DNA of 64,000 nt from an uncultured Roseburia sp. Lineage in GTDB: Bacteria > Bacillota > Clostridia > Lachnospirales > Lachnospiraceae. Shown one piece after another: positions 17,697 through 40,569 of this stretch. The stretch lies in NCBI GenBank assembly GCA_947644305.1, contig CANRYS010000005.1, positions 62,001 through 126,000 on the forward strand, written 5' to 3'. The notes under the pieces are model-generated. The model had not been told where the DNA came from and made no database searches. It was given only the letters and a program-made list of their open reading frames with translations. The position numbers and the translations under genes were made by a program. Within the stretch, counting starts at the first letter, position 1. Each line of letters begins with the position of its first letter.

Positions 17697-17705
17697 GAGG
17701 TCATG

Positions 17706-21144: not shown

Positions 21145-22710
21145 TCAAATTCCAATATACCTTACATAATCAAAATAAGCGAAAGTATTACTGTCCTCTC
21201 CGTTTGAGGTGGCATACACGCCCAATGTGTTTCCTACAAAACCTCCCGTGGCATCGGTACAGAGGATTCTTCCATCTATGTGGTCTACGATAGTAATGAA
21301 ATCGGTTCCATCTGTGCTGTATTGGAAGGACAGGTCTTGAAGACGGGCTTCCAACCTCAGTGTCAGGCGATTGCAGGTATGTTCCAGGGAAACAGATTTC
21401 AGGATGGTTGTCTCGTCTTTCCAGGTGCGAAGGACAGAGATGACTGTGGTGCGGCCATCGGTACTTACCAGACACTGGTAGTTTGAGTTCTCGCATTGGA
21501 AAATGGCGATACCAGCTTGCTCTTTTATTGAAGCTGGGGAAAATTCCATTGCAGTCTCGAAGCGGAAGTTAAAATCTTTCTGCCTCTGGCATACATAGCT
21601 TGGATTTCCAGAGGAAGAGAGGATATCTTTTGAGCACCGCAGCGAAAGATATCCTTTTTTGTCAGTCAGGGAGTAATTTTCAGGGACTGGATTTCTCAGA
21701 TACATAAAGTGCAGGGGAAGAGACTTCCTATCAAAATGTTCCGTGGCGGGAACCGGTTCGGTAAAATGAAGGGGAAGGTCCGGGGCTTCCAATGTGGTTT
21801 CAACGATCCCTTTCCCTGGACTGACGATCGGCCATCCGTCTTCCCAGGTCATGGGCACCAGAAAAGTTTCTCTGCCCAAATTGCGGTGATAGCCGCCATA
21901 GGGGCGGGAGGCCAGAAGGATCATCCACCATTTTCCGTTCTGGGTTTCGACAATGTCAGGGTGGCCAACATTGACAATGGGGTAAGAAAACCCAAGATGG
22001 CGGTGAGTCATAATGGGATTGGCTCTGCAGCCCTCGAATGGCTCAAACAGACTTTTGCTCCTGGCGATGGAAATGGCGTGGTTGTGTGCGGTGCCGGCTT
22101 CGGAGATCAGCAGATAATACCAGCCATCTTTTTTGTAAATATGGGGTCCTTCTGGCCATTCAACATTTCGAAGTGCCCCATGCCACGCTGGATAGCTTTC
22201 GCCCACAAGTTTCATCGTGTTCAGGTCCAGCTCCTGTATGTAGATCTCATTATCTCCAAAATAACGAGAACCCTCACGCCTTGGCTTTGTACCACAGTAA
22301 TAGCATTTGCCGTCTTCGTCGAAAAACAGAGAGGGGTCAATCCCCTCCGAACCGAGAGGAAAAGGATCGGACCAGGGCCCCGCGGGGTCCTTTGCGGTGA
22401 CGATGAAATTTCCCAGAGCACTGCTTACATTTGTCGTGATCATATAAAACGTACCATTATGATAACGTAAAGTCGGCGCAAAGATGCCCTGGCTCACCTC
22501 GGCGTTTTCTAATGGAAGCTGGGTCGGACGGTCCAAAATATTTCCGATCTGTTCCCAGTGGACCAGGTCCCGGCTGTGGAAGATGGGCACTCCTGGGAAA
22601 TAGGAAAAGGTGGATGTTACAAGATAATAATCATCTCCCACCCGGCACATGGAGGGATCTGGATAAAAACCAGGAAGGACTGGATTTTGGTAAAATTGTT
22701 TATCATTCAT
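21145..22710 (-). CDS. Glycoside hydrolase family 43 (beta-xylosidase/arabinofuranosidase)
   Basis: A 521-residue intracellular enzyme (no signal peptide) that removes xylose or arabinose from imported xylo-oligosaccharides; exact specificity is not readable. The five-bladed propeller has general base Asp18 (GFYPDPSM), pKa-modulating Asp125 (GIDPSLFF) and acid Glu187 (EWPEGPH). Residues ~320-520 form the C-terminal beta-sandwich common in GH43 subfamily 12-like enzymes. AAGGAG lies just upstream of the ATG. It is transcribed away from the transporter operon across a 279-base intergenic region. A long open frame on the opposite strand is a shadow. Confidence 0.93.
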   Translation of the reverse strand: MNDKQFYQNPVLPGFYPDPSMCRVGDDYYLVTSTFSYFPGVPIFHSRDLVHWEQIGNILDRPTQLPLENAEVSQGIFAPTLRYHNGTFYMITTNVSSALGNFIVTAKDPAGPWSDPFPLGSEGIDPSLFFDEDGKCYYCGTKPRREGSRYFGDNEIYIQELDLNTMKLVGESYPAWHGALRNVEWPEGPHIYKKDGWYYLLISEAGTAHNHAISIARSKSLFEPFEGCRANPIMTHRHLGFSYPIVNVGHPDIVETQNGKWWMILLASRPYGGYHRNLGRETFLVPMTWEDGWPIVSPGKGIVETTLEAPDLPLHFTEPVPATEHFDRKSLPLHFMYLRNPVPENYSLTDKKGYLSLRCSKDILSSSGNPSYVCQRQKDFNFRFETAMEFSPASIKEQAGIAIFQCENSNYQCLVSTDGRTTVISVLRTWKDETTILKSVSLEHTCNRLTLRLEARLQDLSFQYSTDGTDFITIVDHIDGRILCTDATGGFVGNTLGVYATSNGEDSNTFAYFDYVRYIGI

Positions 22711-22914: not shown

Positions 22915-22952
22915 TGCGTTTCAAAAAATGGCTTTTTTTTGTGCGAAACGCA
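22915..22952 (+). repeat. Inverted repeat in the operon leader
   Basis: TGCGTTTC (22915-22922) and GAAACGCA (22945-22952) with an inner A-run/T-run hairpin. It could be an operator or an RNA stem-loop; no terminator T run follows the outer arms. Confidence 0.6.
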
Positions 22953-22989
22953 TAAAAAAGAGAAAGGATGAAAGGAGATTGCGACAGCT

Positions 22990-25900
22990 ATGTCAAAGTT
23001 GATGAAGAAAAAAGGCTTGCGGACATTTCTTATTGTTGTGGTGGTAATCGCAGCATTGGTCGTGTTTTTTAAACTTAAAGGAACGTCAACAAGCGACAAC
23101 TCCGACAAGTATAAGGGCGTAGATCTGGAAGCGACGGAAAATTCCTATGGTCGTAGTGATACATATGCCTTGTACAAAAAAGCTCATGGGGATTCTGCGC
23201 CAGAGGGTGCAGAGAACACATATGAGTTTGACGTTTTTGGCTATAAAGACAGCAGCAACGTTTCCAAGCGTAGTGGTGTTGGCCCGGCAGCCGATAAGTC
23301 AGACGCTGTACAGATTCCGGAAGAAGGATATGCAGAGTATGAGATTGATGTGAAGAACGCTGGTTATTACAATCTTATGCTGGAGTATTTTCCAACAACG
23401 GATGAGGAAGACCGAGGTATTTCGATTGAATCAAAGATTGAGATCAATGGGAAAGTTCCTTTTAGTGGAGCGGATGCGATAGCGCTTGGGCGTGTCTACA
23501 CGGACGAAGGAGAAGTGAGGACGGATAACCAGGGGAATGAGATTCGTGCGACGCAGGTGGAAGATCCGAATCGTGGCTGGATTTCTACTTATCTGGAAGA
23601 CGCTACTGGATATGAAGTCGAGCCTTATAAATTTTATATGGAGGCAGGTAAAAATAAGATTCGTATTACCGGCGTAAATGAAAAACTCGTGATGCGCAAG
23701 ATGGTGCTGACGAACAAAAAAACCGTTCCAGAATATTCTGGATATTCTCAGGAAAACTCTGGAAAGACAAATAACGTTGCTGGCGATTATCTTCTGAAGA
23801 TACAGGGAGAGAAATCTGTAAGACGTTCTTCGCCATCTCTGTACGCTACCTATGATCGTACCTCCAGTGACACGGAGTATGAAGATAAAGATGGAAAGAT
23901 AACCCAACACAATACAGACAGACAGGTCTTGAACATGATCGGAGGAACACAGTGGAAGGTTCCTAACGATTGGTTGGAATGGGAGTTTGAAGCGCCGGAA
24001 GAAGGCGATTATGTCATTGGCATCAAAGGGCGCCAGGGATATAACCGTGGATATATTGCAAACCGTGCTTTGCTCATTGACGGAGAGATGCCATTCCAGG
24101 AAATGTCCAAAGTACAGTTTACATATAGTAATGTCTGGGAAATGAAGTGCCTTCAGGATGAAAACGGTGAGGCCTATAAATTTCATTTAACCAAAGGAAA
24201 GCACACGATTCGTTTGAAAAATACACTGGGTGAGCTGGGAGACTATCTTTCACAGCTAACGGACAGCGTATACAACATGAACCAGATGTATCGTCAGATT
24301 CTCGTGCTGACAGGTACGGAGCCGGATGAATACCGTGATTACCGGATCGATGAAGTGTATCCAGAGGTTATCAAGGCGATGGATATTGAATCTAAGAGAC
24401 TTTACAAACTGGTAGATGAAGTGGTGGCATACACCGGTGAAAAGGGTGGAGAGATTTCTGTAGCCCAGACACTGGCGCGTCAGATGGAGACCTTTGTGAA
24501 GAGACCGGATAAAATCCCGGCTATGCTTAAAAACTTCAAAGAAAATGTAAGTTCCCTTGGAACATCTATCAATAATCTGAGTGCTGCTTCTATGGATATC
24601 GATTATATTGCGATTGCGGGAAGCAAAGAAAAACTGCCAGAGGTTGATGAGAGCGGATTTGATAAGATGGTGCACGAGTGCGTGCTCTTTATCAATTCTT
24701 TCCGCAGTGACTCTTCAGCGCTTGGAAATGTTTACGATTCGGATGACCCAGATGTAATCGATGTCTGGATCACAGCCGGACGTGACCAGAGTACGATCCT
24801 GAAAAATATGGTTGACCAGATGTTTACTCCGGAGACGGGGATCAAGGCAAATGTAAAATTGATCGATGCGGCGGCAGGCGCCAATACGGTGACTTCTTCC
24901 ACGGCGGCAGTCAATGCGATGCTTCCAGCGGTTATTTCTGGATTTGGCCCGGATGTTGCGCTGAACATCACCCAGACAGAGCCTGTCAACTATGCACTTA
25001 GAAATGCGGTGGTTGACCTGAAAGCCGAGTTTGGCAGTGAAGTAGATGAGGTGCTCTCTGAGTATTATCCAAGTTCTTATGAGTCTTATAAGTTCAATGG
25101 CGGTCTTTTTGCCCTGCCGGAGACACAGAATTATAATGTTATGTTCTATCGTACGGATATCATGGATCAGCTTGGTATCGATGTTAGTAAAGTAAATACC
25201 TGGGATGACGTGATCAAGATTCTTCCCGTTCTTCAGAAGAACAGCATGTCCTTTGCGATTCCGTCTGTTGAGCGTAAGATCAACAACATGACGAATCCGG
25301 ACCTTGCGAACTATTATGCGCAGCTATATCAGCGCGGTGGTACATTATATGATGAAGAAGCGATGAAGACTACCATTGATTCACCTGAGGGTATTGAGGC
25401 TTTTGAGTTCTATACAAAGCTCTTTACCAATTATAAACTGGAAAAACAGTATGATTTTGCAAACCGTTTCCGAAGTGGAGAGATGCCGATTGGTGTTGCG
25501 GACTATAGTACCTTTAATACCTTGGCAGTATTTGCACCTGAGATCAAGGGACTTTGGAATTTTGCTCTTATGCCTGGCATGTCTCAGGAGGATGGTTCCA
25601 TTAACCGTGCCACTCAGTCCTGGGGAACCTGTTCGATGATGCTCCGCGGTGCCAAGGATAGAAATAAGACCGACAAGGCATGGGAGTTCATGAAATGGTG
25701 GGCAAGTTCTAAAGTTCAGGCTACTTACGCCAGCGAGCTCGAGGCAGTTATGGGTGCTGCGGCACGTTATGCCACAGCCAATATAAATACTTTTGAGACG
25801 CTGTCTTGGAGTAGCAAAGAATCTGCCGCTTTGAAAGAACAGTGGGAGCATGCATTTGGTCTTCCTGAAGTTGCCGGTGGTTATTACACGGCACGTCATA

Positions 25901-26049
25901 TCACCAATGCGATCCGTAAGGTTATGAATGATAACGAAGACCCAAGAGAGACTCTTCTTGATTATACCAAAACGATTAATGAGGAGCTTACCAATAAGCG
26001 AACGGAATTTGGGCTTCCAACAGCGAAAGAAGCAAATAAAAATAAATAA
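22990..26049 (+). CDS. Giant membrane-anchored ABC solute-binding protein
   Basis: A 1019-residue protein with an N-terminal signal-anchor (residues ~9-28, FLIVVVVIAALVVFF) and no lipobox, so held in the membrane by a helix. Residues ~55-250 and ~265-430 look like two beta-sandwich carbohydrate-binding-like modules (YAEYEIDVKNAGYYNLMLEY; WLEWEFEAPEEGDYVIGIKG). Residues ~430-560 are helical. Residues ~585-1005 are a family 1 solute-binding domain (DVIDVWITAGRDQST, FNGGLFALPETQNYNVMFYR, WDDVIKILPVL). Ordinary binding proteins are ~450 residues, so this is a fusion. Two permease genes follow. The ligand is inferred to be a xylan fragment from the locus. Confidence 0.85.
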   Translation: MSKLMKKKGLRTFLIVVVVIAALVVFFKLKGTSTSDNSDKYKGVDLEATENSYGRSDTYALYKKAHGDSAPEGAENTYEFDVFGYKDSSNVSKRSGVGPAADKSDAVQIPEEGYAEYEIDVKNAGYYNLMLEYFPTTDEEDRGISIESKIEINGKVPFSGADAIALGRVYTDEGEVRTDNQGNEIRATQVEDPNRGWISTYLEDATGYEVEPYKFYMEAGKNKIRITGVNEKLVMRKMVLTNKKTVPEYSGYSQENSGKTNNVAGDYLLKIQGEKSVRRSSPSLYATYDRTSSDTEYEDKDGKITQHNTDRQVLNMIGGTQWKVPNDWLEWEFEAPEEGDYVIGIKGRQGYNRGYIANRALLIDGEMPFQEMSKVQFTYSNVWEMKCLQDENGEAYKFHLTKGKHTIRLKNTLGELGDYLSQLTDSVYNMNQMYRQILVLTGTEPDEYRDYRIDEVYPEVIKAMDIESKRLYKLVDEVVAYTGEKGGEISVAQTLARQMETFVKRPDKIPAMLKNFKENVSSLGTSINNLSAASMDIDYIAIAGSKEKLPEVDESGFDKMVHECVLFINSFRSDSSALGNVYDSDDPDVIDVWITAGRDQSTILKNMVDQMFTPETGIKANVKLIDAAAGANTVTSSTAAVNAMLPAVISGFGPDVALNITQTEPVNYALRNAVVDLKAEFGSEVDEVLSEYYPSSYESYKFNGGLFALPETQNYNVMFYRTDIMDQLGIDVSKVNTWDDVIKILPVLQKNSMSFAIPSVERKINNMTNPDLANYYAQLYQRGGTLYDEEAMKTTIDSPEGIEAFEFYTKLFTNYKLEKQYDFANRFRSGEMPIGVADYSTFNTLAVFAPEIKGLWNFALMPGMSQEDGSINRATQSWGTCSMMLRGAKDRNKTDKAWEFMKWWASSKVQATYASELEAVMGAAARYATANINTFETLSWSSKESAALKEQWEHAFGLPEVAGGYYTARHITNAIRKVMNDNEDPRETLLDYTKTINEELTNKRTEFGLPTAKEANKNK

Positions 26050-26064
26050 GAGAGGAGAGTAAAT

Positions 26065-27000
26065 ATGAAGTTTCTGGGAAAATACATGCAGATTAAGAAA
26101 CGGAATGTTGGGATTGCTTGGAAAAAGGCGAAAATGTCGAAAACATGTTATCTCTTTTTGCTCCCGTATTTTATTCTGTTTACCGTATTTTACATTTTGC
26201 CGGTAGTCATGTCGATCTTTTATAGTTTTACTTATTACAATGTACTGGAACCGGCAAAGTTTATTGGGGTTGAGAATTACATAGATCTGCTTTTGTCAGA
26301 TGATGTATTTCTGATTGCGGTAAAGAATACATTCCTTCTTGCTGCGATTACCGGACCGCTTGGATATATCATGGCATTTATCTTTGCCTGGTTCATTAAC
26401 GAGCTACCAAGATACATCCGTGCTTTTGCGGTAATGGTGTTTTACGCGCCGACGATTGCCGGTCAGGCATATTTGATCTGGTCCATCCTTTTTAGTGGGG
26501 ATGCCTATGGTTATGTAAATGCCTTTTTGACTAAGTTTGGAATTATCAACGAGCCAATCTTATGGCTGACTGATACCAAGTATATGATGAACGTGGTTAT
26601 TATCGTCGTTCTCTGGATGAGTCTCGGTACTGGATTCCTTTCCTTTGTGGCAGGTCTCCAGGGAATTGATGCTTCGCAGTTTGAAGCAGGGTATGTGGAT
26701 GGCGTGAGAAACCGCTGGCAGGAATTGTGGTATATTACTCTTCCTAATATGAAACCGATGCTTTTGTTCGGTGCCGTTATGGCAATCACACAGTCTTTTG
26801 GTGTGGCGGACGTAACCATGGCCCTCTGCGGATATCCAAGTACGGATTATGCTGCGCGGACCGTTGTTACCCATCTGATCGACTATGGTACGACACGATT
26901 CGAGATGGGGTATGCGTCAGCTATCGCTACCATATTATTTGTGGTAATGATTGTGTGTAATAAAGCTATTCAGGCATTGCTCAATAAGGTTGGAACTTGA
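26065..27000 (+). CDS. Sugar ABC transporter permease (MalF/UgpA type)
   Basis: A 311-residue inner-membrane permease with about six hydrophobic segments. The cytoplasmic EAA loop is EAGYVDGVRNRWQELWYITLPN-like (residues ~210-230), where the ATPase docks. It forms the importer with the next gene; the solute-binding protein is encoded 16 bases upstream. No ATPase gene is present, so a shared MsmK/UgpC-like ATPase must be encoded elsewhere (inference). Confidence 0.93.
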   Translation: MKFLGKYMQIKKRNVGIAWKKAKMSKTCYLFLLPYFILFTVFYILPVVMSIFYSFTYYNVLEPAKFIGVENYIDLLLSDDVFLIAVKNTFLLAAITGPLGYIMAFIFAWFINELPRYIRAFAVMVFYAPTIAGQAYLIWSILFSGDAYGYVNAFLTKFGIINEPILWLTDTKYMMNVVIIVVLWMSLGTGFLSFVAGLQGIDASQFEAGYVDGVRNRWQELWYITLPNMKPMLLFGAVMAITQSFGVADVTMALCGYPSTDYAARTVVTHLIDYGTTRFEMGYASAIATILFVVMIVCNKAIQALLNKVGT

Positions 27001-27017
27001 TAGGAGGTATTACAGAG

Positions 27018-27881
27018 ATGAAATTAATCAAACTCAAAAAGAGAAAGCCAAACCGTTCCCGTGGCGGAGATATGGGTATTTACATAATGTTGATCCTGTT
27101 TGGTATATTCTTTGTTGTTCCTCTTGTATATACCGTAAGTAATGCCTTTAAGCCACTGGATGAGATTTATCTCTATCCACCACGGTTTTTTGTGAAAAAT
27201 CCGACCTTTAATAACTTCCAGGATCTTCTGGTAGTTATGTCCAACTCTTATGTACCGTTTACCCGTTATGTATTTAATACGGTGTTGACGACACTGGTCG
27301 GTACAGTGGGACATCTGATCATTGGATCTATGGCAGCCTATGTGCTTGCAAAATATGATTTTCCCGGCGGAAAACAGTTTTTCAATGTTTGTGTGACTGC
27401 CCTGATGTTCAATGCCTATGTACTTCAGATCCCTACCTACCTGATTATGACGAAGCTGGGCTGGGTAGATACCTATCTGGCGCTGATTGTACCGGCGTTT
27501 GCGCTTCCTATGGGACTTTTCCTGATGAAGCAGTTTATGGAGCAGATCCCTGATGCGTTGATTGAAGCGGCGAAGATTGATGGCGCGAAGGAAGGACGTA
27601 TTTTCCTTCAGATCGTTATGCCCAATGTAAAACCTGCCTGGCTGACCGTTACAATCTTTTCCGTACAGAACCTGTGGAATCTGAAGGGACAGATTTATAT
27701 TTACTCAGAGGAATATAAGATGCTGCCATATGCCTTACAGCAGATCATGTCTGCCGGAGTGGCGCGTGCCGGAGTTGGCGGTGCGGCGACGATGGTTGTT
27801 ATGATGGTTCCAATCATCATATTCGTTATGGCGCAGAGTAACATTCTTGAGACAATGGCTAGTTCTGGTATTAAAGACTGA
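27018..27881 (+). CDS. Sugar ABC transporter permease (MalG/UgpE type)
   Basis: A 287-residue permease, the partner of the preceding gene. Six hydrophobic segments are visible, with the first at residues ~20-40 (IYIMLILFGIFFVVPLVYTV) and the EAA loop IEAAKIDGAKEGRIFLQIV near residue 185. A TTG at 26997 overlaps the upstream stop, but ATG 27018 with GGAGG at 27003-27007 (ten-base spacer) is preferred. It lies 17 bases before the NHL gene, in one operon. Confidence 0.93.
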   Translation: MKLIKLKKRKPNRSRGGDMGIYIMLILFGIFFVVPLVYTVSNAFKPLDEIYLYPPRFFVKNPTFNNFQDLLVVMSNSYVPFTRYVFNTVLTTLVGTVGHLIIGSMAAYVLAKYDFPGGKQFFNVCVTALMFNAYVLQIPTYLIMTKLGWVDTYLALIVPAFALPMGLFLMKQFMEQIPDALIEAAKIDGAKEGRIFLQIVMPNVKPAWLTVTIFSVQNLWNLKGQIYIYSEEYKMLPYALQQIMSAGVARAGVGGAATMVVMMVPIIIFVMAQSNILETMASSGIKD

Positions 27882-27897
27882 TGAAGGAGGATGAAAA

Positions 27898-29388
27898 ATG
27901 AAAGTATGTAAAAGATTTGCTTCGGTATTTGCACTGTTGCTTGTCGCATCCGTCCTTTTTAACACAGTAGAGGCTGGAGCTACAAGTTCAGACGGCAATC
28001 ATTATACCTATATATATGACTGCTGGGGATACGACAGGGAATCACCGGATGCATATTCTGTGACACGTACCATTACCGGTTCTGATTTTCCATGTGGTAA
28101 CTTCGTGGAGCCCCAGGGAATGTTTGTAAAAGGAAATGAGTTGTACGTGGCTGATACAGGAAACAGCAGAATTGTAAAACTGGTATTTGAAAACGATGTT
28201 TTTACGTTTGTTAGTGAAATAAAAGAATTTAAGAATAATGGTGCCACAGAAGCTTTGAGTAAGCCGCAGGATATATTTGTGGATAAAGAGGGCAATATGT
28301 ATATTGCGGACACCGGCAATTGTCGGATCGTTCATCTTGATGCTTCGGGGAATCTGGTGAAAATCATAACCAAACCTAAAGATGAGACGGTGGATCAGAA
28401 GAATGATTTTCTTCCCCAGAAATTGGTGGTTGACAGTTCTAACCGTATCTTTACACAGGTTCAGAATGTAAACAAAGGATTTATGGAGTTTGCCAATGAT
28501 GGTTCCTTTACCGGTTTTGTCGGAGCCAGCAAAGTTACCTATAACTTTTTACAGTATCTATGGAAGATGGTGGCATCTCAGGAACAGAGAGCGCGTATGG
28601 ATCTTTTTGTTCCCACAGAGTACAGTAATCTCTGTCTGGACTCAGAAGGATTTATCTATGCGACGATTGCCCAGATCGGTGATGAGGTTATGCCTCAGGA
28701 GGCGCAGCCCATCCGTAAATTGAACGCAAAAGGTACAGATATTCTTGTCCGGAATGGATACGAAGAACCATATGGTGATTATTGGTGGACAGGAAGCGGA
28801 GAGATGGGTGGACCTTCTAAATTTGTGGATATTACCTGTCTGGATAACGATGTGTATTATGCCCTTGATAATACAAGGGGTCGTATATTCGCCTATGATT
28901 TTCAGGGAAATATGCTCTATGCTTTCGGAGGTCATGGATACAAAGCAGGATATTTCATGAATCCATGTGCGCTGGAAGATATGGGAGACACCCTTTTGGT
29001 TATGGATCAGAATCTAGGATCCATCACGCAGTTTACCCTGACTGAGTATGGTAAGTACATCAACGAAGGACTGAGTGAATACAAACAGGGGCATTATGAT
29101 GAATCGGCTGCGATCTGGCAAAAAGTATTAAAACAAAATGGTAATTATGATCAGGCTTATATCGGTATCGGTCGTGCTTACTTAAGGCAGGAAAAATATA
29201 CCGAAGCGATGAAGTACTTTAAGCTGAAGCTTGACTTTACCAATTATTCCAAGGCGTATAAGCTGTATCGTAAAGAATGGTTTGAGGACAATATTAAGAT
29301 TATTATTGCCGTTCTGGTACTTATTATCGTCTTTGGTTATGCATACGGATTTATTAAAAAGGCCAGAAAGGAGGTAGAGAAAGGATGA
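27898..29388 (+). CDS. Membrane-anchored NHL-repeat beta-propeller with TPR domain
   Basis: A 496-residue protein with a signal peptide (residues ~1-28, FALLLVASVLFNTVEAGA). Residues ~50-380 are an NHL-type propeller with repeats such as PQGMFVKGNELYVADTGNSR and PQDIFVDKEGNMYIADTGNCR. Residues ~385-455 are two to three TPR-like helical hairpins (EYKQGHYDESAAIWQKVL, AYLRQEKYTEAMKYFKL). A C-terminal membrane helix (~463-485) ends in a basic tail. The propeller and TPR should face the outside, tethered at the C terminus. Its role in transport is undefined; ligand sensing or scaffolding is inference. It overlaps the Yip1 gene by four bases. Confidence 0.85.
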   Translation: MKVCKRFASVFALLLVASVLFNTVEAGATSSDGNHYTYIYDCWGYDRESPDAYSVTRTITGSDFPCGNFVEPQGMFVKGNELYVADTGNSRIVKLVFENDVFTFVSEIKEFKNNGATEALSKPQDIFVDKEGNMYIADTGNCRIVHLDASGNLVKIITKPKDETVDQKNDFLPQKLVVDSSNRIFTQVQNVNKGFMEFANDGSFTGFVGASKVTYNFLQYLWKMVASQEQRARMDLFVPTEYSNLCLDSEGFIYATIAQIGDEVMPQEAQPIRKLNAKGTDILVRNGYEEPYGDYWWTGSGEMGGPSKFVDITCLDNDVYYALDNTRGRIFAYDFQGNMLYAFGGHGYKAGYFMNPCALEDMGDTLLVMDQNLGSITQFTLTEYGKYINEGLSEYKQGHYDESAAIWQKVLKQNGNYDQAYIGIGRAYLRQEKYTEAMKYFKLKLDFTNYSKAYKLYRKEWFEDNIKIIIAVLVLIIVFGYAYGFIKKARKEVEKG

Positions 29389-30050
29389 GTATGAAAGAAC
29401 GGATTCTCAATAAAGAGAACTGGATCTCCTATGGACACTCATTGCGTTATGCTCTGCACTGTATTGTTCGTCCTTTCGATGGTTTTTGGGATCTTACTCA
29501 TGAAAAGAGAGGATCTATGGCGGCGGCAAATACCATTGTGGTGGTGCTTCTGCTGACGAACATGCTGAGACTGGGATTTACAAGTTTCTTGTTTTACCCA
29601 GTGAACTGGAGGACTGTGAATCTTCTTATGGAGATCATGTCATTTTTGCTTCCTTTTGTGGTATATATTGTGGCAAACTGGTGCCTTACCACTTTGTTTG
29701 ATGGAAAAGGTACATTGAGAGATATTTATATGGGAACGGCATATGCCATGACACCGTATGTATTGATTCAGCTTCCTTTGATTGTGATGAGTAATGTGGT
29801 AACGGAAGAAGAAGGTGCATTTTATCAATACTTTGGTATTTTTTCAATCGTATGGTGTGGCCTTTTGATCGTGGCTTCTGTTATGATGATTCATGATTTT
29901 CTTCTGGGAAAAGCTCTCGGTTTGCTGATCTTTTCCGCAGTAGGTATGCTGGTTATTATATTCCTGTTAGTATTATTCTTCAGTTTGATCAGTGATGGTT
30001 TCTCTTACTTCTATTCTTTGTATAAAGAAATCATTTACCGGTTCTATTAA
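29385..30050 (+). CDS. Yip1-domain integral membrane protein
   Basis: A 221-residue polytopic protein with a short soluble N terminus and about five hydrophobic segments (e.g. VVVLLLTNMLRLGFTSFLFY, LLPFVVYIVANWCLTTLF, LIFSAVGMLVIIFLLVLFF). The pattern WDLTHEKRGSMAAAN, then a central YMGTAYAMTPYVLIQLP motif, is typical of Yip1/YIPF-like bacterial proteins. The start ATG overlaps the stop of the NHL gene (ATGA), indicating coupled synthesis. Function in bacteria is unknown; its fixed place inside a sugar-uptake operon suggests a membrane-complex partner. Confidence 0.82.
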   Translation: MSMKERILNKENWISYGHSLRYALHCIVRPFDGFWDLTHEKRGSMAAANTIVVVLLLTNMLRLGFTSFLFYPVNWRTVNLLMEIMSFLLPFVVYIVANWCLTTLFDGKGTLRDIYMGTAYAMTPYVLIQLPLIVMSNVVTEEEGAFYQYFGIFSIVWCGLLIVASVMMIHDFLLGKALGLLIFSAVGMLVIIFLLVLFFSLISDGFSYFYSLYKEIIYRFY

Positions 30051-30063
30051 TGGAAGGAGGGCA

Positions 30064-32649
30064 ATGTTCAGAATGAAAAAGAAATTTTATTTACTCTTAG
30101 TTGCTGCGTTATCTTCCATGTTTGCACTGGCTGGTTGTGGAACATCTGGAGAGGGTTATAAGGAGCTGACTGCTTACACAAACGAAGACAGTCAGACGGA
30201 GACCATCAGTAACAATGCACTGGAGCTGACTGTTGATAAGGAGACAACGACATTTGAATTGAAAGACAAAGTACATAATAAGGTCTTTACTTCGAATCCT
30301 TCTGAAGAGGAAGTGGAGAAATATGCGAATGCAAAAGGGCAGCTCAAAGATGTATTGAAGTCAACAATGGTGCTTACTTATTCTAACAGCACAGATACGC
30401 AGAAGGTAATAAATAACTTTAATGCCTCGATTGAAGATGGCAATTATAAGATCGAGAAAGTAAGTGATACACAGATTGATGTACACTATACCATTGGAGA
30501 TCTGGAAAAATTATTTATCTGTCCGTTGGTAATCAAAGAGTCCAAGATGAATGAATATCTGGAAAAGATGTCCGAGACAGAACAAAAATCTGTAAAGCGT
30601 AATTATGTATATTATAATTACGATGAGCTGGATGAAGCAGAAGATGACACAGAGCTTCAGATCGCGTTAGAAAAGTTTCCAGATTTAAAAGATGAATCCG
30701 TGTATTATCTGTCGGAGAAGATAACGGATTCCAAGGCAAAATCCATGGAACAGATCTTTACCAAAGCAGGATATACCGAAGAGGAACGGAATAAAGATAG
30801 TGAGCCTTATAAGGTTTCGAGAAATAGTGGAAAGCCTATTTTCGATATTACGATCCAGTATATTTTGGATGAGGGGGATCTGGTAGTCAAGGTTCCTATG
30901 GAAAAGATTGAATACAATCAGACCTATCCGATCGTTGAACTTTCTGTTCTTCCTTATATGGGAGCAGGACATTCGGATGAAAAAGGTTATGTTCTTGTAC
31001 CGGACGGCATGGGAGGAATCATTAATTTCAATAATGGTAAAACCGGCCAGCAGAAATATCTGAGTGAAGTGTACGGATGGGATTATGGTATCAGCCGTAA
31101 AATGGTGGTAGATGAGTCCAAAGCTTCCTTTCCGCTGTTTGCAGTTTCTAATGAGACAGAAAAGAGTGCCTTTATCTGTGTTGGAGAAGAAGGAAGTTCT
31201 TATTCCAGCATAGAGTCAGATATTGCCGGAAAAGAAAACGGATATAACTATGGACGCTTTGTATATAAGATGATCCACGGTGAAGATATGGATATTTCTA
31301 AAAAATCAGATACCACGGTTCGTTCTTTTGAGGCGGGGCTGCCAAAAGAAAATCTGACACAGCGCTACATCTTTTCGGACGCTACAGACTATGTGAGTCT
31401 GGCAAAAGGGTATCGTGAATACTTGATGGGGCGTTATCCCGAGCTGGTGAAGAAAGAAAATACAACGGTGCCAATGGCAATAGAATTGATCGGTGCAGTA
31501 GATAATGTGGAGCATATTCTGGGATATCCAGTGACTCGTTCCCAGGCGCTTACAACATACTCTGAGGCAGAAGAAATCTTAAAACAGCTCAAGGGTGCCG
31601 GTGTAGAGGATCTGAGTGCGAAATACACGGGATGGTTTAATACAGGAGTGAAGCAGAAATCTGCTGCAAAGGTAAGCCTGGTGGGAAGACTTGGAGGCAA
31701 ATCAGATATCAAGAGTCTTGCAACCTATGCTTCTAGTACAGCGGGACTTGATTTGTTCCTGAATGCCAAATTCATGTATGTCATGAAAGACAAGATGTTT
31801 GATGGATTTAGCGTAAACAGGGATGCGGCGAAGTTTGTGAGCCGTGAGATCTGTGAGCTGTATACACTGGATCCGATCGTGTATCAGACCAACGAAGAGT
31901 TTACTTTATGTGAAATGTATTATCTCGTGAAACCGTCCTACACCATCGAGAATATAGACAATTATCTGTCAGAGATATCAGATCTTGGTGTAAATAATAT
32001 TGGATTTGAGGATGTGGGAAATACTCTTGCCGGAGACTATAACCCGAAAGCAAGAGTTTCCAGAGAAGCTTCTATGAATATGCAGATTGATAAGATGAAA
32101 GCCCTGAAAGAGAGCGGAAGTCTTGTGATGACCACTTCTGGTAATCAATATGCTGTGCCATACTCCGATTATGTGACAGATATGGATATTGACGCCAGGG
32201 CAGTAAACATCATAGATGAGAGCGTTCCATTTTATCAGATTGCTCTTCACGGACTGGTAAATTATTCAGGAAGTGCCATAAATCTCTCCGAAGACCAGAC
32301 GGATATGATTTTGAAGTCGGCTGAGACTGGAGCAGGATTGTACTATACCTTTATGAATGCGCCGACCAGTGTACTTCAGAATGGTGAGAACACACAGTAT
32401 TATGCATGTAATTTTATGGACTGGAAAGATTCAGCCATCGAACTTTATAATAAGTTTAATTCCAATCTTGGTGATATCTACAGCCAGTATATTGTGGGAC
32501 ACGAAAAGCTCGCCAATGGAGTTTACAAGACAACCTACGAAAGTGGAAAAGAAGTTGTCGTAAATTATAATTATGCAGATTATGATTATAACGGAAAGAC
32601 GATTCCGCAGAGAGACTTTGTAACCTTTAAGACAGGAGGTGGAGAATAA
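30064..32649 (+). CDS. DUF5696-type surface lipoprotein
   Basis: An 861-residue lipoprotein: signal segment LLLVAALSSMFALAGC with lipobox LAGC (Cys25 from this start). A mixed N-terminal beta domain runs to about residue 320. Next is a region with LPYMGAGHSDEKGYVLVPDG, then a barrel-like C-terminal half (IGAVDNVEHILGYPVTRSQ, YTGWFNTGVKQKS, IGFEDVGNTLAGDYNP) reminiscent of glycosidase-like folds. I assign it to the DUF5696 type from memory of this gene context. ATG 30073 is an alternative start; AGGAGG at 30055-30060 is three bases before 30064 and twelve before 30073. Catalytic function is unproven. Confidence 0.72.
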   Translation: MFRMKKKFYLLLVAALSSMFALAGCGTSGEGYKELTAYTNEDSQTETISNNALELTVDKETTTFELKDKVHNKVFTSNPSEEEVEKYANAKGQLKDVLKSTMVLTYSNSTDTQKVINNFNASIEDGNYKIEKVSDTQIDVHYTIGDLEKLFICPLVIKESKMNEYLEKMSETEQKSVKRNYVYYNYDELDEAEDDTELQIALEKFPDLKDESVYYLSEKITDSKAKSMEQIFTKAGYTEEERNKDSEPYKVSRNSGKPIFDITIQYILDEGDLVVKVPMEKIEYNQTYPIVELSVLPYMGAGHSDEKGYVLVPDGMGGIINFNNGKTGQQKYLSEVYGWDYGISRKMVVDESKASFPLFAVSNETEKSAFICVGEEGSSYSSIESDIAGKENGYNYGRFVYKMIHGEDMDISKKSDTTVRSFEAGLPKENLTQRYIFSDATDYVSLAKGYREYLMGRYPELVKKENTTVPMAIELIGAVDNVEHILGYPVTRSQALTTYSEAEEILKQLKGAGVEDLSAKYTGWFNTGVKQKSAAKVSLVGRLGGKSDIKSLATYASSTAGLDLFLNAKFMYVMKDKMFDGFSVNRDAAKFVSREICELYTLDPIVYQTNEEFTLCEMYYLVKPSYTIENIDNYLSEISDLGVNNIGFEDVGNTLAGDYNPKARVSREASMNMQIDKMKALKESGSLVMTTSGNQYAVPYSDYVTDMDIDARAVNIIDESVPFYQIALHGLVNYSGSAINLSEDQTDMILKSAETGAGLYYTFMNAPTSVLQNGENTQYYACNFMDWKDSAIELYNKFNSNLGDIYSQYIVGHEKLANGVYKTTYESGKEVVVNYNYADYDYNGKTIPQRDFVTFKTGGGE

Positions 32650-33564
32650 ATGAAAAAGCAAAAAAAGAAAAGGACACTTGCACAAAAGAATGCCATTGCA
32701 GGATACTTGTTTATTCTTCCCTTTATCTTAGGTTTCATCCTGTTTATGGTTGTTCCTCTGGGACAGTCCCTGATGATGACTTTTAATGAAGTAAAGCCGG
32801 ATCCCGATGCTGCAGGTTTTAGTATGACATGGGTAGGCATAAAAAATTATATGCATGCATTTACAGTGGATGCAGAATTTGTACCATATCTAATCAGTGA
32901 GCTTACGACGATGGTGATCAATACACCGGCTACTTTGATATTCAGTTTCTTTATCGCAATGCTGTTAAATCAGAATTTCAAAGGAAGAGGTGCCGTTCGA
33001 GCGATCTTCTTCCTGCCAGTAATTCTTTCATCTGGTGTTATCGTAGGTGTTGAGTACAACAATGCGCTATTAAGTGATATGAAGGAGATTATCTCAGAAA
33101 CCTCCACGGATACAAGCGTCACTGGTGTATTGGAAAGTATACTGGTTACCTCAGACAGTAGTCCTATGTCGAAGATGTTTGAATACGTATTTACAATTAT
33201 CAATCAGGTTTACAACATAGCGATTGCTTCTGGTATTCAGATCATCATGTTCCTTTCTGCTTTGCAGACAATCTCGCCCAGTATGTTTGAGGCGGCGAAG
33301 ATTGAGGGATGTACCGCTTGGGAAAGTTTCTGGAAGATTACGTTCCCAATGGTAAGCTCAATGATACTCGTAAACGTAGTGTATACCGTAATCGACTTCT
33401 TCTTAAAGACAGATAACACGGTTATGACGAAGATTTCCGAAGAGGTAACAAAGTTGAATTATGGAGTTAGTTCGGCGATGGCTTGGGTATATTTCCTTTG
33501 TGTAATTATCATACTTGGTATCATTTCGCTGATTATTTCTAAGAGGGTGTACTATTATGAATAA
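32650..33564 (+). CDS. Sugar ABC transporter permease (second system, MalF type)
   Basis: A 304-residue permease starting at the base after the upstream stop. Six membrane segments are visible (first: AGYLFILPFILGFILFMVVPLGQSL), with the EAA loop FEAAKIEGCTAWESFWKIT near residue 215. It overlaps the next permease gene by eight bases. The periplasmic loop around residues 140-175 (ISETSTDTSVTGVLES) is longer than usual. It belongs to the importer whose binding protein is at 34703. Confidence 0.93.
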   Translation: MKKQKKKRTLAQKNAIAGYLFILPFILGFILFMVVPLGQSLMMTFNEVKPDPDAAGFSMTWVGIKNYMHAFTVDAEFVPYLISELTTMVINTPATLIFSFFIAMLLNQNFKGRGAVRAIFFLPVILSSGVIVGVEYNNALLSDMKEIISETSTDTSVTGVLESILVTSDSSPMSKMFEYVFTIINQVYNIAIASGIQIIMFLSALQTISPSMFEAAKIEGCTAWESFWKITFPMVSSMILVNVVYTVIDFFLKTDNTVMTKISEEVTKLNYGVSSAMAWVYFLCVIIILGIISLIISKRVYYYE

Positions 33565-34555
33565 TAAGAAGAATAAATTTAAAACCTTTATCGAACGAAA
33601 CAAAAAATCCAACGGGTACCTACTGAGAAAAGTATCTTTTAATGTCTTTTATAAGATTATACGTGCGGTATTATTGTTTGGATTATGTTTTATGATTCTG
33701 CAGCCGTTGTTGAATAAAGTTTCCTTGAGTTTCATGGAAGAACAGGACTTATATGATTCAACGATCGTTGCTATACCGAGACACTTTACTCTGGATAACT
33801 ATAAAATTGCCGGATACCTTATGAAATACTGGCAGTCTCTTCTGAATACAGGCTTGATTTCATTGATGGTCAGTGTTCTTCAGATCATTTCCTGCGTATT
33901 GGTAGGATACGGGTTTGCTAGATATAAGTTTCCATTAAAAGGTTTGTGGTTTGGTGCAGTGATCCTTGTGATCCTCGTTCCGCCTTCCACGATCCAGTCA
34001 TCGCTGTATTTGAATTTTGCATACTTTGATATTTTTGGTATTTTCAGCCTGATAACGGGGAAGCCCTTGAACCTCTTAGGGACAATAACGCCATATGCGT
34101 TGATGTGTCTGGGATGTATGGGACTTAAGAGTGGTCTGTATATATATATGATCCGTCAGTTCTTCCGCGGCATACCAAAAGAGTTAGAGGAAGCAGCTTA
34201 TGTGGATGGATGTGGCAAGGTAGCAACATTTGTAAGGATCATGCTTCCGGATGCAAAGCCAATCATTACATCCTGTTTCTTGTTTGCATTTGTATGGCAG
34301 TGGACAGATTCATTCTATTCCAATCTGTTCCTGAAATCAGATTTTGCAATCCTTTCTACAAAGCTTGCTAACATAGCAGGCGCATTGGATAGTTATCTGG
34401 ATGTGCGAGGTATCGCGAAGAAAGCGACAACCGCATATTCTCAGGGAATGATCGCTACGGGAACTTTGATGGTGATCATACCGCTTATTTTCATCTATCT
34501 GTTTGCACAGAAAGGTTTCGTAGAAAGCTTGAGCCAGTCCGGCATCAAGATGTGA
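33557..34555 (+). CDS. Sugar ABC transporter permease (second system, MalG type)
   Basis: A 332-residue permease, partner of the preceding gene and overlapping it by eight bases. The basic N terminus (~25 residues) is longer than usual, followed by six hydrophobic segments and the EAA loop EEAAYVDGCGKVATFVRIMLPD-like near residue 215. The family-typical end is ESLSQSGIKM. The binding-protein gene follows after 147 bases that contain repeats and a stem-loop. Confidence 0.92.
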   Translation: MNNKKNKFKTFIERNKKSNGYLLRKVSFNVFYKIIRAVLLFGLCFMILQPLLNKVSLSFMEEQDLYDSTIVAIPRHFTLDNYKIAGYLMKYWQSLLNTGLISLMVSVLQIISCVLVGYGFARYKFPLKGLWFGAVILVILVPPSTIQSSLYLNFAYFDIFGIFSLITGKPLNLLGTITPYALMCLGCMGLKSGLYIYMIRQFFRGIPKELEEAAYVDGCGKVATFVRIMLPDAKPIITSCFLFAFVWQWTDSFYSNLFLKSDFAILSTKLANIAGALDSYLDVRGIAKKATTAYSQGMIATGTLMVIIPLIFIYLFAQKGFVESLSQSGIKM

Positions 34556-34558: not shown

Positions 34559-34680
34559 GAGCGAAGCCGAAGGCGGAGCGAATGCTAAAAGCGGCATGGA
34601 GCGGAGCGAATGCTATAAAGAAGAAGTGCTAAAATAGTTTGTTACCACGCTGTCTAGTCCAGGACAGCGTGTAACGATAA
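34559..34680 (+). repeat. Direct repeats and stem-loop between permease and binding protein
   Basis: The 14-base unit CGGAGCGAATGCTA occurs at 34574-34587 and 34602-34615, with a shorter GAGCGAA at about 34559. Next is a stem-loop: GTTACCACGCTGTC with GACAGCGTGTAAC (about 34640-34675, one bulge, eight-base loop). No T run follows, so mRNA processing or stabilisation is more likely than termination. Confidence 0.65.
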
Positions 34681-34702: not shown

Positions 34703-36136
34703 ATGAAAGCAAATATGAAAAAATTGCTTGCAATGGGTCTTACTGTTGTACTTACTGTTGGATGTCTCAGTGGATGCGGCGATAAAAAAGAAGAGTCTTC
34801 AAAACAGGATCCCGGATCTAAAAATGAGGAAAACAAAGAGGCTTCACAGTCACAAAAAAAGACTTTTGACGACCTTGGTGGAATGACAATTACCATTGGT
34901 GACTGGTATACATCTGAAGAGGTTGGAGAGTCTGAGTATGCGAGAGCAACAGAGGACTACAGACAGGAGATCATGGAGAAATACAATTTCAAGATTAAGC
35001 GTGAGTCGAAGTTTTCATACCAGGATCAGCAAGAGAACTATGTAAATGGTGTTATGTCTAAGAGCCCGGCATGCCAACTGCACTATCTGTATCAGGAGAA
35101 GGTTGCAGCTCCGCTTATGAAAGGACTTATGTATGATCTTTCCACTCTTCCAGAATTTGATTTCAAAGAGGAAAAATGGAATCAGACCGTAGTTGAGCTT
35201 ATGAGCATCGGAAACGGTATCTGGGGAATGAATCCGGAGGCAGAGCCGCGTGGAGGCGTATTCTTCAACAAGCGTATGCTGAAAGAGGCAGGTATTGATG
35301 AGGATGAGCCATACGATCTTCAGAAAGATGGAAAATGGACATGGACTAAGTTTAAAGAGTATTGTAAGAAACTTACCGTTGATGCAGATGGAGATGGAAA
35401 AACAGATCAGTATGCATTGGCAAGTTTCTCTAAATATTATCTGCCAATGTGTGCGGCAAATAACAACGCAACATTTGTGGATGTTAACGAAGAAGGAAAA
35501 TACGAAAATAAGAGTGGAACAAAAGAATTCCTCGAGGCTATGAACTGGGGTATGAGTCTTTATAATGAAGGATATATCATGCCGAAACCAGAGGGAGCAG
35601 CTTGGGATTGGTATAAAGCTGCATTCCGTGATGGTGAAGTTGCAATGCAGGTATCTGAGGTTTATGAGATCAGTGCATTTGCTACGATGGAAGATAACTG
35701 GGGATTCGTTATGTTCCCATATAATGAAAAGAATAAGGATGCAACCAATAGTTCAACACCAAACGATAACATTATTGTAATGCCAAGCTGCTATGAGCCG
35801 GAAGAGGCAGAGAAGATTGCATTTGCTTATGATCTTTACACAGAACCTACACCGGAATTTGATCTTGATGAGGCTTGGAAAGAGTCTTATTATGAGCAGT
35901 TCAGAGATGAGCGTGCGGTGGATGAGACATTGACGATGATGAGAGAGCCAGAGCGCAAACAGACTTCTTATTTGCCAATGCTCGGTGAGCTTGATTATGG
36001 TGATTTCTGCTATAGTGTATACGCAGGTGCTACAACACCAGCGAAGCAGATTGAGAAGGTTTCTTCTCAGTGGAACAAAGTAATTGAGGATATGAATAAG
36101 AAGTATGAGAATTTTGCAGCTTCTCATTCTAAATAA
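34703..36136 (+). CDS. ABC transporter sugar-binding lipoprotein
   Basis: A 477-residue extracellular solute-binding protein, family 1. The signal peptide ends in lipobox LSGC with lipidated Cys25, followed by an acidic/serine linker (KKEESSKQDPGSKNEE). Mature features include MTITIGDWYTSEE, NGIWGMNPEAEPRGGVFFNK and a DADGDGKTDQYA calcium-like loop near residue 235. GGAGG at 34690-34694 is eight bases before the ATG. It serves the permease pair just upstream and is probably the most abundant product of the operon, given the separate strong ribosome site and preceding stem-loop. Confidence 0.93.
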   Translation: MKANMKKLLAMGLTVVLTVGCLSGCGDKKEESSKQDPGSKNEENKEASQSQKKTFDDLGGMTITIGDWYTSEEVGESEYARATEDYRQEIMEKYNFKIKRESKFSYQDQQENYVNGVMSKSPACQLHYLYQEKVAAPLMKGLMYDLSTLPEFDFKEEKWNQTVVELMSIGNGIWGMNPEAEPRGGVFFNKRMLKEAGIDEDEPYDLQKDGKWTWTKFKEYCKKLTVDADGDGKTDQYALASFSKYYLPMCAANNNATFVDVNEEGKYENKSGTKEFLEAMNWGMSLYNEGYIMPKPEGAAWDWYKAAFRDGEVAMQVSEVYEISAFATMEDNWGFVMFPYNEKNKDATNSSTPNDNIIVMPSCYEPEEAEKIAFAYDLYTEPTPEFDLDEAWKESYYEQFRDERAVDETLTMMREPERKQTSYLPMLGELDYGDFCYSVYAGATTPAKQIEKVSSQWNKVIEDMNKKYENFAASHSK

Positions 36137-36281: not shown

Positions 36282-36367
36282 GAGTGAAAAATGAATTTTT
36301 CACTCTGCAAGTTTGTGCGCGCACGCCCAAACTTGTGTGATGCGCAAAAAGCGTGCGCGCATGGAGG
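36282..36367 (+). promoter_or_regulatory. Interlocked hairpins in the GH3 leader
   Basis: Hairpin A: AGAGTGAAAA (36282-36291) / TTTTCACTCT (36297-36306). Hairpin B: CAAGTTTG (36308-36315) / CAAACTTG (36328-36335). Pairing C: TGCGCGCACGC (36316-36326, inside the loop of B) / GCGTGCGCGCA (36351-36361), ending one base before the GGAGG at 36363-36367. B and C together would be a pseudoknot or mutually exclusive states next to the ribosome site. Confidence 0.6.
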
Positions 36368-36372
36368 TAAAT

Positions 36373-38538: not shown

Positions 38539-38550
38539 ATGGAGGAGAGA

Positions 38551-40569
38551 ATGAACACTGCAAATTATACGAAATGCTGGCTGGATTATAAAGAACTGCC
38601 AGAAGCGCGGAAAAGAGCCTGTTTTTATTATCCTGTGCTGATGACGGGAGGGAAGGTCGCCGACACAGCGGGAGAGGAGTATTGTACGTCCATGGCACAG
38701 ATGCTGGGAGAGCCGGTGGAACTTCTCGGAGAGGCCATTGAGGAGCCGGGAGTCTATATGGAAGTGGATCCAGAGCTGGAAGTTCCTGACTGTGAAGAGG
38801 CACTGGCGTTTCAGACCTTTATGATTTCTGAGGTAGAGGGAAGTATGATCATCACTGGTAAGTCCCAGGAAGCATTGTTACAGGGTGTATTTGCCTTTGT
38901 ACGCATGGTTTATCTTGGAGAGTTGGATGAGAAATTGCCCTATTCTTTTACACCAACGATGCCCCTTCGGATTATGAATCATTGGGACGATATGGATGGC
39001 AGTATCGAGAGAGGGTATTCTGGGCAGTCCTTCTTTTATGAGGACTACAAAATGTTCTACAATCATAGAACAGAAACATATGCCCGGCTGATGGCATCCA
39101 TCGGTACGAATGCGATTGTGATCAATAATGTGAATGTACATGAAAAAGAGACCTACCTCATTACAGATGTGTATCTGGGCATGGTGAAAAAATATGCAGA
39201 ACTGTTTGGCAGATATGGTATAAAACTTTTCCTGAGTGTAAATTTTGCAGCTCCAATGGAGCTGGGAAATATCCCGGTATCAGATCCTTTGGATGCGGCT
39301 GTGATTAGGTGGTGGGAGGAGGCCGTGAAGCATATTTACGAAGTGATTCCTGAATTTGGTGGATTTTTGGTAAAAGCAGATTCCGAGGGAAGGCCAGGGC
39401 CATTTACTTATGGAAGAACCCATGCGGACGGTGCCAATATGCTGGCCAGAGCGCTGGCACCCTACGGCGGCATCGTTGTGTGGAGGTGTTTTGTATACAA
39501 CTGCGGTCAGGACTGGAGAGATCAGAAGACCGACCGGGCAAGGGCGGCTTATGATCATTTTATGGCTTTAGACGGAAAGTTTGATGATAATGTGATACTT
39601 CAAATTAAAAATGGTCCGATGGATTTTCAGGTTAGAGAGCCAGTATCGCCGCTCTTTGGAGGGCTGAAAAAGACCAATATGATCCTTGAAGTGCAGATTG
39701 CCCAGGAATATACCGGCCAGCAGATCGATCTTTGTTATCTGATTCCGATGTGGAAGGAGATTCTTTCCTTTGATACTTATGGAATGGGAGAGGGAACGAC
39801 TGTGGAAAGGGTAGTCTCTGGAGAGTGTTATGGACAGAGCCTGTGTGGCATCGCCGGCGTGATCAATACCGGGGATGATGAGAATTGGACGGGAAATGAT
39901 CTTGCAGCTGCAAATCTGTATGGATTTGGACGTCTGGCGATGGATGCCTCCCTGAGTGCCGAGCAGATCGCCAGTGAGTGGACCAGATTGTCCCTCGGCA
40001 GTTCCAAGGATGTGACAGAGGTCGTCGTGCCCATGCTGTGTGGCTCCTGGGGGACCTATGAAAAGTATAATGCGCCTCTTGGAATTGGCTGGATGGTCAC
40101 CCCTCATTATCACTACGGACCGGATATCGACGGGTATGAATATGACCGCTGGGGGACCTATCACCGGGCGGACCTGCATGGTATTGGTGTGGACCGTACA
40201 GAAAAGGGGACCGGATATGTGTCCCAGTACAATGAACCCTGGTGTTCCATATACGGAGATTTGGGAAAATGTCCAGAAGAGTTGTTGCTTTTTTTCCATC
40301 ATGTTCCATATACCTACATGCTAAAAACCGGAAAAACCTTGATCCAGCACATATATGACACCCATTTTGAAGGTGTCCAGGAAGTGGAAACGATGCAGAG
40401 AAACTGGAATACACTCAAGAGCAAAATTTCAGATCGCGCTTTTTCCTGTGTGGCAGAGCGTTTTGAACGACAGTTGGAGAACGCAAGGGAATGGCGTGAC
40501 CGTGTAAATACATATTTTTATCGTAAATGTGGGATTGAGGATGAAAAAGGAAGAAAAATTTACCCCTGA
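38551..40569 (+). CDS. Alpha-glucuronidase, GH67
   Basis: A 672-residue cytoplasmic enzyme that removes (4-O-methyl)-glucuronic acid from the non-reducing end of aldouronic acids. GH67 signatures are plain: IMNHWDDMDGSIERGY, GFLVKADSEGRPGPFTYGR, HADGANMLARAL and VILQIKNGPMDFQVREPVSP (residues ~150-370). The ATG at 38539 abuts the GH3 stop but overlaps the ribosome site; GGAGG at 38541-38545 is five bases before ATG 38551, which is chosen. Next to GH3 and uxuAB it releases glucuronate for the hexuronate pathway. Confidence 0.96.
   Translation: MNTANYTKCWLDYKELPEARKRACFYYPVLMTGGKVADTAGEEYCTSMAQMLGEPVELLGEAIEEPGVYMEVDPELEVPDCEEALAFQTFMISEVEGSMIITGKSQEALLQGVFAFVRMVYLGELDEKLPYSFTPTMPLRIMNHWDDMDGSIERGYSGQSFFYEDYKMFYNHRTETYARLMASIGTNAIVINNVNVHEKETYLITDVYLGMVKKYAELFGRYGIKLFLSVNFAAPMELGNIPVSDPLDAAVIRWWEEAVKHIYEVIPEFGGFLVKADSEGRPGPFTYGRTHADGANMLARALAPYGGIVVWRCFVYNCGQDWRDQKTDRARAAYDHFMALDGKFDDNVILQIKNGPMDFQVREPVSPLFGGLKKTNMILEVQIAQEYTGQQIDLCYLIPMWKEILSFDTYGMGEGTTVERVVSGECYGQSLCGIAGVINTGDDENWTGNDLAAANLYGFGRLAMDASLSAEQIASEWTRLSLGSSKDVTEVVVPMLCGSWGTYEKYNAPLGIGWMVTPHYHYGPDIDGYEYDRWGTYHRADLHGIGVDRTEKGTGYVSQYNEPWCSIYGDLGKCPEELLLFFHHVPYTYMLKTGKTLIQHIYDTHFEGVQEVETMQRNWNTLKSKISDRAFSCVAERFERQLENAREWRDRVNTYFYRKCGIEDEKGRKIYP

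Follow-up and report, generated by a model that had tools for sequence, protein, structure and literature searches.

What are three proteins without a defined role in sugar uptake doing inside what otherwise resembles a sugar importer? This question is raised by a locus in a 64,000-nucleotide stretch of DNA from an uncultured Roseburia sp. (contig CANRYS010000005.1, assembly GCA_947644305.1), referred to here as the window, in which genes for an NHL/TPR protein, a Yip1-domain membrane protein and a DUF5696 lipoprotein stand between two pairs of permease genes. The analyses described below suggest, with a probability of roughly 0.6, that the locus holds one copy of the genes for a conserved membrane machine capturing and importing oligosaccharides of plant polysaccharides, in which the NHL and Yip1 proteins would form a scaffold and a mostly non-catalytic glycosidase would act as binder. 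The neighbourhood, 22990-34555 together with 34703-36136, holds nine reading frames, all on the + strand and designated here by single letters:

22990..26049, +, S: membrane-anchored sugar-binding protein, 1019 amino acids (Pfam SBP_bac_1/8 and a GH115_C-like domain)
26065..27000, +, A: CUT1-type permease, EAA loop present (Pfam BPD_transp_1 above cut-off)
27018..27881, +, B: CUT1-type permease, EAA loop present (Pfam BPD_transp_1 above cut-off)
27898..29388, +, N: NHL beta-propeller and TPR protein (Pfam, alignment, hydropathy)
29385..30050, +, Y: Yip1-domain integral membrane protein (Pfam, alignment)
30064..32649, +, U: DUF5696 lipoprotein with an LAGC lipobox (Pfam DUF5696, E 8.9e-184)
32650..33564, +, C: CUT1-type permease (Pfam score 23.7 bits, cut-off 26.4)
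33557..34555, +, D: CUT1-type permease, EAA loop present (Pfam BPD_transp_1 above cut-off)
34703..36136, +, s: second sugar-binding lipoprotein, 477 amino acids, with a lipobox (position and profile relatives)

The ATG at 27018, preceded by GGAGG, is a likelier start for B than the TTG at 26997 given in the list of open reading frames, and U starts at 30064 or 30073, the GTG at 29992 of that list falling within Y. If B starts at 27018 and U at 30064, neighbouring genes are separated by gaps of 15, 17, 16, 13 and 0 bases or overlap by 4 (N/Y) and 8 (C/D) bases, and 147 bases lie between D and s. An earlier, sequence-only reading of this DNA had described a tight run (gaps of 0-17, overlaps of 4 and 8) with a second binding protein next after it, and the reading frames and spacings agree on both points. 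The spacing also suggests that the run is co-transcribed. No Pfam match to s was obtained at E 0.1; a relative of s follows D in most of the drawn loci.

Linkage of these genes, hereafter the cassette, was followed in a class sample of 291 genomes searched with four profiles (DUF5696, NHL-TPR, Yip1 and the N-terminal half of S). PF18952 (DUF5696) matched 90 of the 291 genomes at E <= 0.001 and 77 above its cut-off, its matches including amylase-type proteins, members of glycoside hydrolase (GH) families GH101 and GH129, and short relatives. Strong matches of the cassette type were found at 85 places in 65 genomes, a few of these being pieces of one gene, and none of 14 well-known control genomes gave a DUF5696 match above the cut-off. 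NHL-TPR proteins at E <= 1e-30 account for 81 rows in 61 genomes, Yip1 proteins of the cassette kind for 81 rows in 62, and the N-terminal half of S was found in 63. Specifically, all four parts occur in 61 of the 291 genomes, at least one in 65 and none in 226; no genome among the 291 has S, N or Y without a cassette-type DUF5696, and the partial genomes (G057, G071, G101 and G274) are each in approximately 180 to 540 contigs. DUF5696 lies within 4 kb of the NHL row and on the same strand in 78 of 81 cases, the other three comprising two contigs without DUF5696 and one where DUF5696 is split by an insertion; starting from DUF5696, an NHL match lies no more than 5 kb away for 79 of 85 rows. 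The cassette spans 41 of the 181 genera of the class sample, and its gene order is kept at protein identities of about 20-45 %. In the phylum-wide sample the NHL profile was found in 27 of 299 genomes. Linkage of the trio exceeds chance and is near-obligate in the class sample. Sporadic linkage, which the sequence-only reading had named as fatal to its proposal, is thereby contradicted for that sample, NHL, Yip1 and DUF5696 being nearly always linked there, and the co-occurrence with a large binding protein that it had expected is also seen, as the trio nearly always accompanies a binding protein of > 850 amino acids and two permease pairs.

Gene order was examined in 60 neighbourhoods taken from the 85 strong rows; in 48 of the 60 the DNA reaches far enough to either side. 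In 45 of these 48 a single strand carries the complete set, consisting of S (at least 850 amino acids), a permease pair upstream, then N, Y and U, and a second permease pair downstream. The other three are L035, with an insertion, L060, where one permease is displaced, and L063, which lacks an S of that length; in L035 the DUF5696 gene is split by two reading frames on the opposite strand, as an insertion element would split it. A further set of at least 79 named loci, biased to the close relatives of the window, carries the whole set in 59 of 59 evaluable cases among the matches listed. These loci come mainly from Clostridia, Lachnospiraceae among them, with Lachnotalea glycerini DSM 28816 and Butyrivibrio proteoclasticus P6B7 as two of the carriers, and Treponema accounts for 18 of 79 among the matches listed; the closest relatives of U among those matches, from two uncultured Roseburia assemblies (L092 and L100), are 95 % identical to it. 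Treponema being a diderm genus, the cassette is not a Gram-positive speciality, and the notion of a Gram-positive analogue restricted to Gram-positives is to be abandoned. In the wider phylum, two or more permeases precede N, just as they do in the window, at 13 of 20 loci.

Hydropathy analysis by script places a signal-like segment at the N-terminus of N and a membrane helix at its C-terminus (approximately 468-486), an arrangement like that of a type I membrane protein. The earlier description of N as anchored by its C-terminal tail holds for the helix and is incomplete in that the N-terminal segment is there too. The window has N and Y as separate genes. When the window is counted with the 60 neighbourhoods, the Yip1 profile also matches 26 of 59 NHL frames; of the 81 Yip1 rows of the class sample, 35 fall within frames of > 500 codons, and each of the ten long frames tested was positive for both Pfam domains. 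In a quick tree built from 77 of 132 NHL sequences, parsimony requires at least 8 changes of fusion state, or at least 5 when starred branches only are counted; one change rests on L156, called fused by length though a separate Yip1 gene follows. Such repeated fusion is good evidence of a physical partnership between N and Y. A search for solved structures related to Yip1 returned none at E <= 1.

Fold search assigns U a glycosidase fold of the GH129 type, while Pfam yields DUF5696 alone, with no match of Glyco_hydro_129 to U at E up to 0.1. The catalytic pair of the GH129 enzyme NagBb, D435 and E478, provides the reference. These positions agree with the alignment, and mutants D486N of ZgGH129 and D764N/E796Q of GH101 appear in the titles of structure entries. 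The residue census covers 164 aligned proteins: 140 from cassettes (79 of them the named set, with its bias to close relatives), 20 DUF5696-like proteins not beside an NHL row, and 4 GH129 controls, these being the usable proteins from a PF11308 (GH129) search positive in 5 of the 291 genomes. Both the Asp and the Glu are kept in 20/20 non-cassette proteins and in 4/4 GH129 proteins. Among the 140 cassette copies, in contrast, acids stand at both positions in 5 (exactly Asp and Glu in 2), at the first alone in 80, at the second alone in 6 and at neither in 49, such that 135 are without at least one catalytic acid; at the Glu position Asn is commonest (53/140). U of the window keeps the Asp at the nucleophile position and has Thr in place of the acid/base Glu. 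Acids occupy both positions in 3 of another 20 cassettes, of which 18 come from the wider phylum and 2 from the class; the protein of L212, whose NHL gene is present, ends before the second position, and the DUF5696 protein of L211 was left out of this census. Taken together, the alignments suggest that catalytic retirement of cassette DUF5696 proteins is mostly the rule, with few exceptions. A binding role for U fits these data, because the GN-Y, PFYQ and HG motifs stay conserved in the cassette proteins. A script detects a hydrophobic N-terminal segment in 132 of the 140 and a lipobox-like motif in 28.

An alternative assignment, in which the Asp of the NagBb HLDGW motif was the nucleophile and its absence from DUF5696 meant lost catalysis, was dropped: the quadruple mutant 5wzq alters that Asp alongside His residues, and the Asp for this reason fits metal binding. 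The DUF5696-like reading frames outside the cassette (L170-L173, L191-L203), most of them 561-619 amino acids and one 668, keep both acids, and, judged from alignment, such proteins resemble a still unclassified GH129-like family of active glycosidases.

The remaining parts resemble those of a CUT1 importer. S consists of an N-terminal membrane helix, two beta-rich regions, a helical region and a CUT1-type solute-binding domain (approximately 584-1010) with the fold of maltose-binding protein, the fold-search rows covering 584-1009 and hence not the beta-rich regions. The N-terminal helix looks uncleaved and has no lipobox. By script, a hydrophobic N-terminal segment is present in 113 of 116 S proteins and a lipobox-like motif in 5. 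The first beta-rich region is GH115_C-like, with matches resembling carbohydrate-binding modules (CBM35 and CBM6) in relatives: at E <= 0.01, the N-terminal halves of 26 diverse S proteins gave Golvesin_C 16, CBM_35 9, GH115_C 4 and CBM_6 2, in tallies that, here and for neighbours below, extend to the first 25 Pfam families at most. The permease pairs carry BPD_transp_1 and the EAA loop, C marginally so, its EAA-like loop EAAKIEGCTAWESFWKITFP being visible by eye in the translation and unmatched by the script pattern. A search of the genome with OB_MalK found one MalK-type ATPase, on contig C27, and the permeases therefore probably share that ATPase.

What the cassette carries is suggested by its surroundings, the flanking features of the window being as follows:

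21145..22710, -, GH43 beta-xylosidase-type enzyme, divergent from S (Pfam)
22915..22952, +, inverted repeat TGCGTTTC / GAAACGCA upstream of S (RNA fold)
34641..34675, +, strong RNA hairpin without a T run, between D and s (RNA fold)
36313..38538, +, GH3 glycosidase (Pfam)
38539..40569, +, GH67 alpha-glucuronidase (Pfam)
40605..41678, +, UxuA mannonate dehydratase (Pfam)
41701..43314, +, mannitol-dehydrogenase-type oxidoreductase, from context probably fructuronate reductase (Pfam)

With GH43 upstream and GH3, GH67, UxuA and the oxidoreductase downstream, glucuronoxylan use fits, and fragments of (methyl)glucuronoxylan are probably the cargo in the window. Elsewhere the enzymes differ. In the named set (31 of 79 loci and 106 of 268 candidate proteins scanned) the neighbours include GH10 (9), GH67 (6), GH43 (6), GH3 (5), GH5 (4) and GH115 (1), with AraC-type domains in 9 of the 106, while downstream of 43 of the 60 class-sample loci (90 proteins) GH9, GH10, GH16, GH26, GH130, GH43 and sulfatases occur two to four times each. 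At the phylum level, some neighbours are apiosidase-like (L206, L209), of GH106 type (L208) or DUF3604 (L204). Six multi-copy genomes hold 3-22 DUF5696 and 3-10 S matches, some of them pieces or contig ends; in G351, 11 DUF5696 matches (10 genes) stand against 4 for S. Five genomes of 2.2-3.0 Mb (G351, G423, G452, G329 and G370) yield 8-22 matches for DUF5696 against no more than 4-10 for S, some being gene pieces. Because DUF5696 matches outnumber those of S in multi-copy genomes, the core would appear to be N-Y-U-C-D, with S-A-B possibly shared among cores.

Of the non-coding features, the inverted repeat is possibly an operator or leader hairpin, the region 22875-22989 folding with z -2.97 (0 of 200 shuffles equal or better). 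Folding of the whole D-s gap gave z -2.27 (5 of 200 shuffles as good), and its hairpin perhaps favours the message of s, raising the share of s in the transcript; a direct repeat, GGAGCGAATGCT, is found in the same gap at 34575-34586 and 34603-34614. Rfam detected tRNA only over 20500-44500, the gene near the locus being at 20941-21023 on the - strand, and of three matches to the catabolite-repression consensus in the window none is upstream of S. A sigma-70-family factor (43390-44166, - strand) lies just past the xylan genes and is the only regulator among ten neighbours scanned with Pfam, two of which (18596-19717 and 19842-20870) have no Pfam match. Beyond the GH43 gene lies an ABC (ATP-binding cassette) ATPase, 17703-18599, whose Pfam list is without OB_MalK.

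Gene order, linkage, N-Y fusions, predicted folds and residue loss having been computed, the dynamic steps that we infer would run as follows. S and U would bind glycan fragments at the membrane, with U, itself membrane-anchored, gripping the chain in its old active-site cleft and thereby holding or orienting it for the binding proteins. S and s would then hand oligosaccharides to the permease pairs A/B and C/D, which would import the products using one shared MalK-type ATPase encoded elsewhere. N-Y would serve as a membrane-spanning scaffold joining binders with permeases, and the core N-Y-U-C-D would stay fixed while neighbouring enzymes vary with substrate.

Several observations weigh against such a machine. 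Linkage and fusion would indicate a common function and not that every part joins one complex. No permease lies directly upstream of N in 6 of the 20 wider-phylum loci (L206, L208, L209, L210, L213 with 2.7 kb available, and L221 with a large S downstream), and in L204 the order is reversed, U-C-D preceding a fused N-Y with no large S near; the halves of the cassette may accordingly be separable, and the double importer of the sequence-only reading stands as the usual state, with two permease pairs, and not as a universal one. The loci without a permease directly upstream of N speak for an ordinary operon in which two independent CUT1 importers are accompanied by N-Y as a sensor or assembly factor (for example, gating by glycan reading) and by a U that only shields or stores oligosaccharide. 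The permeases do resemble normal CUT1 subunits, the genome has one MalK-type ATPase, and in N a short tail accompanies an outside part and a membrane helix. However, in the class sample the trio matches the permeases in conservation and is hardly ever seen apart from them, and the tail of N in the window, at about ten residues, is too short for a signalling domain; this explanation is rather unlikely. Presence is also patchy, with cassette-type DUF5696 in 5 of the 10 genomes sampled from the window's own family, and the sampled genomes are related, so that the counts are not independent trials. Should kinship, uncorrected in the counts, account for everything, the linkage would be inherited synteny among genes without a common task. 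That is hardly credible given an order that survives about 20-45 % identity, 41 of 181 genera and the step to Treponema, copies that are several per genome and beside changing enzymes, and an N and Y repeatedly fused or split.

The reading of U as a retired enzyme also has its opponents. Both acids are present in 8 of 160 cassette copies (1 of the 160 being without a second-position residue), some of which may still be enzymes; U of the window retains the Asp at the nucleophile position; and the residue assignment combines sequence alignment with general background on the catalytic roles. Cassette DUF5696 might hence be an enzyme of shifted chemistry, using the remaining Asp and water or another residue to trim glycans before uptake, as could be argued from the 80 of 140 copies, and U of the window, with acid at the nucleophile position only, from the strongly conserved fold and GN-Y, PFYQ and HG motifs, and from the 3 of 20 further cassettes with both acids. 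Set against this are the rarity of a Glu retained at the acid/base position (6/140) and of the full pair (5/140) when compared with 20/20 in non-cassette relatives, and we consider the proposal improbable. Finally, the scanned neighbours also contain unrelated household genes. The polysaccharide role given to the locus by the sequence-only reading is upheld in part: many neighbours degrade polysaccharides, and the multiplication of cassettes recalls SusCD.

Preferring the capture-and-import machine, it can be asked how it compares with known systems. CUT1 oligosaccharide importers with a shared MsmK/MalK ATPase are the nearest, from which the cassette differs by two permease pairs in one run, by a 1019-amino-acid anchored binding protein with CBM-like regions and by the inserted, fixed NHL-TPR/Yip1/DUF5696 trio. 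From the GH129 glycosidases (the 3,6-anhydro-D-galactosidase ZgGH129, 5opq/8rzk; NagBb, 5wzn) its members differ in standing beside importers, in a mostly hydrophobic N-terminus and in acids that are mostly missing. Gram-positive polysaccharide utilisation loci likewise pair glycosidases (here GH43, GH3 and GH67) with carbohydrate ABC genes; a linked transcriptional regulator belongs to their definition, and a fixed N-Y-U core is not known to form part of it. CUT1 importers and GH129 folds are known already. Their union with NHL-Yip1 and a retired glycosidase was not found described in a literature search outside which most subscription papers lie, and is new to the literature searched, leaving a fair chance of a distinct class of machine. 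A recognisable core, three of whose proteins lack an assigned role, would serve to mark polysaccharide loci among Clostridia, other Bacillota and Treponema; it would suggest roles for DUF5696 and the cassette branch of Yip1, and make a concrete complex testable, with the retired glycosidase giving the DUF5696 family a specific, falsifiable role, that of binding without cutting.

Capture of large oligosaccharides by fibre degraders that use ABC transporters is less understood than the SusCD systems of Bacteroidota. No SusC or SusD Pfam domain was found among the nine proteins, and a weak SusF_SusE match (E 0.0064) occurs in 1 of 26 S relatives. The cassette has ABC permeases, not a TonB-dependent porin, and its parts are unrelated to those of SusC/SusD. 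In outline the two are alike, each having surface glycan binders coupled to a transporter and paralogous sets beside differing enzymes. It may be, and this is put forward tentatively, that the cassette is a widespread counterpart of SusCD for users of ABC transporters: a stable membrane complex uniting the NHL-TPR/Yip1 scaffold, a glycosidase lipoprotein without catalysis and the permeases, with about 8-10 DUF5696 genes in some genomes of 2.2-2.4 Mb, each copy tuned to a glycan by its neighbours and the large CBM-bearing S-A-B importer serving several cores in trans.

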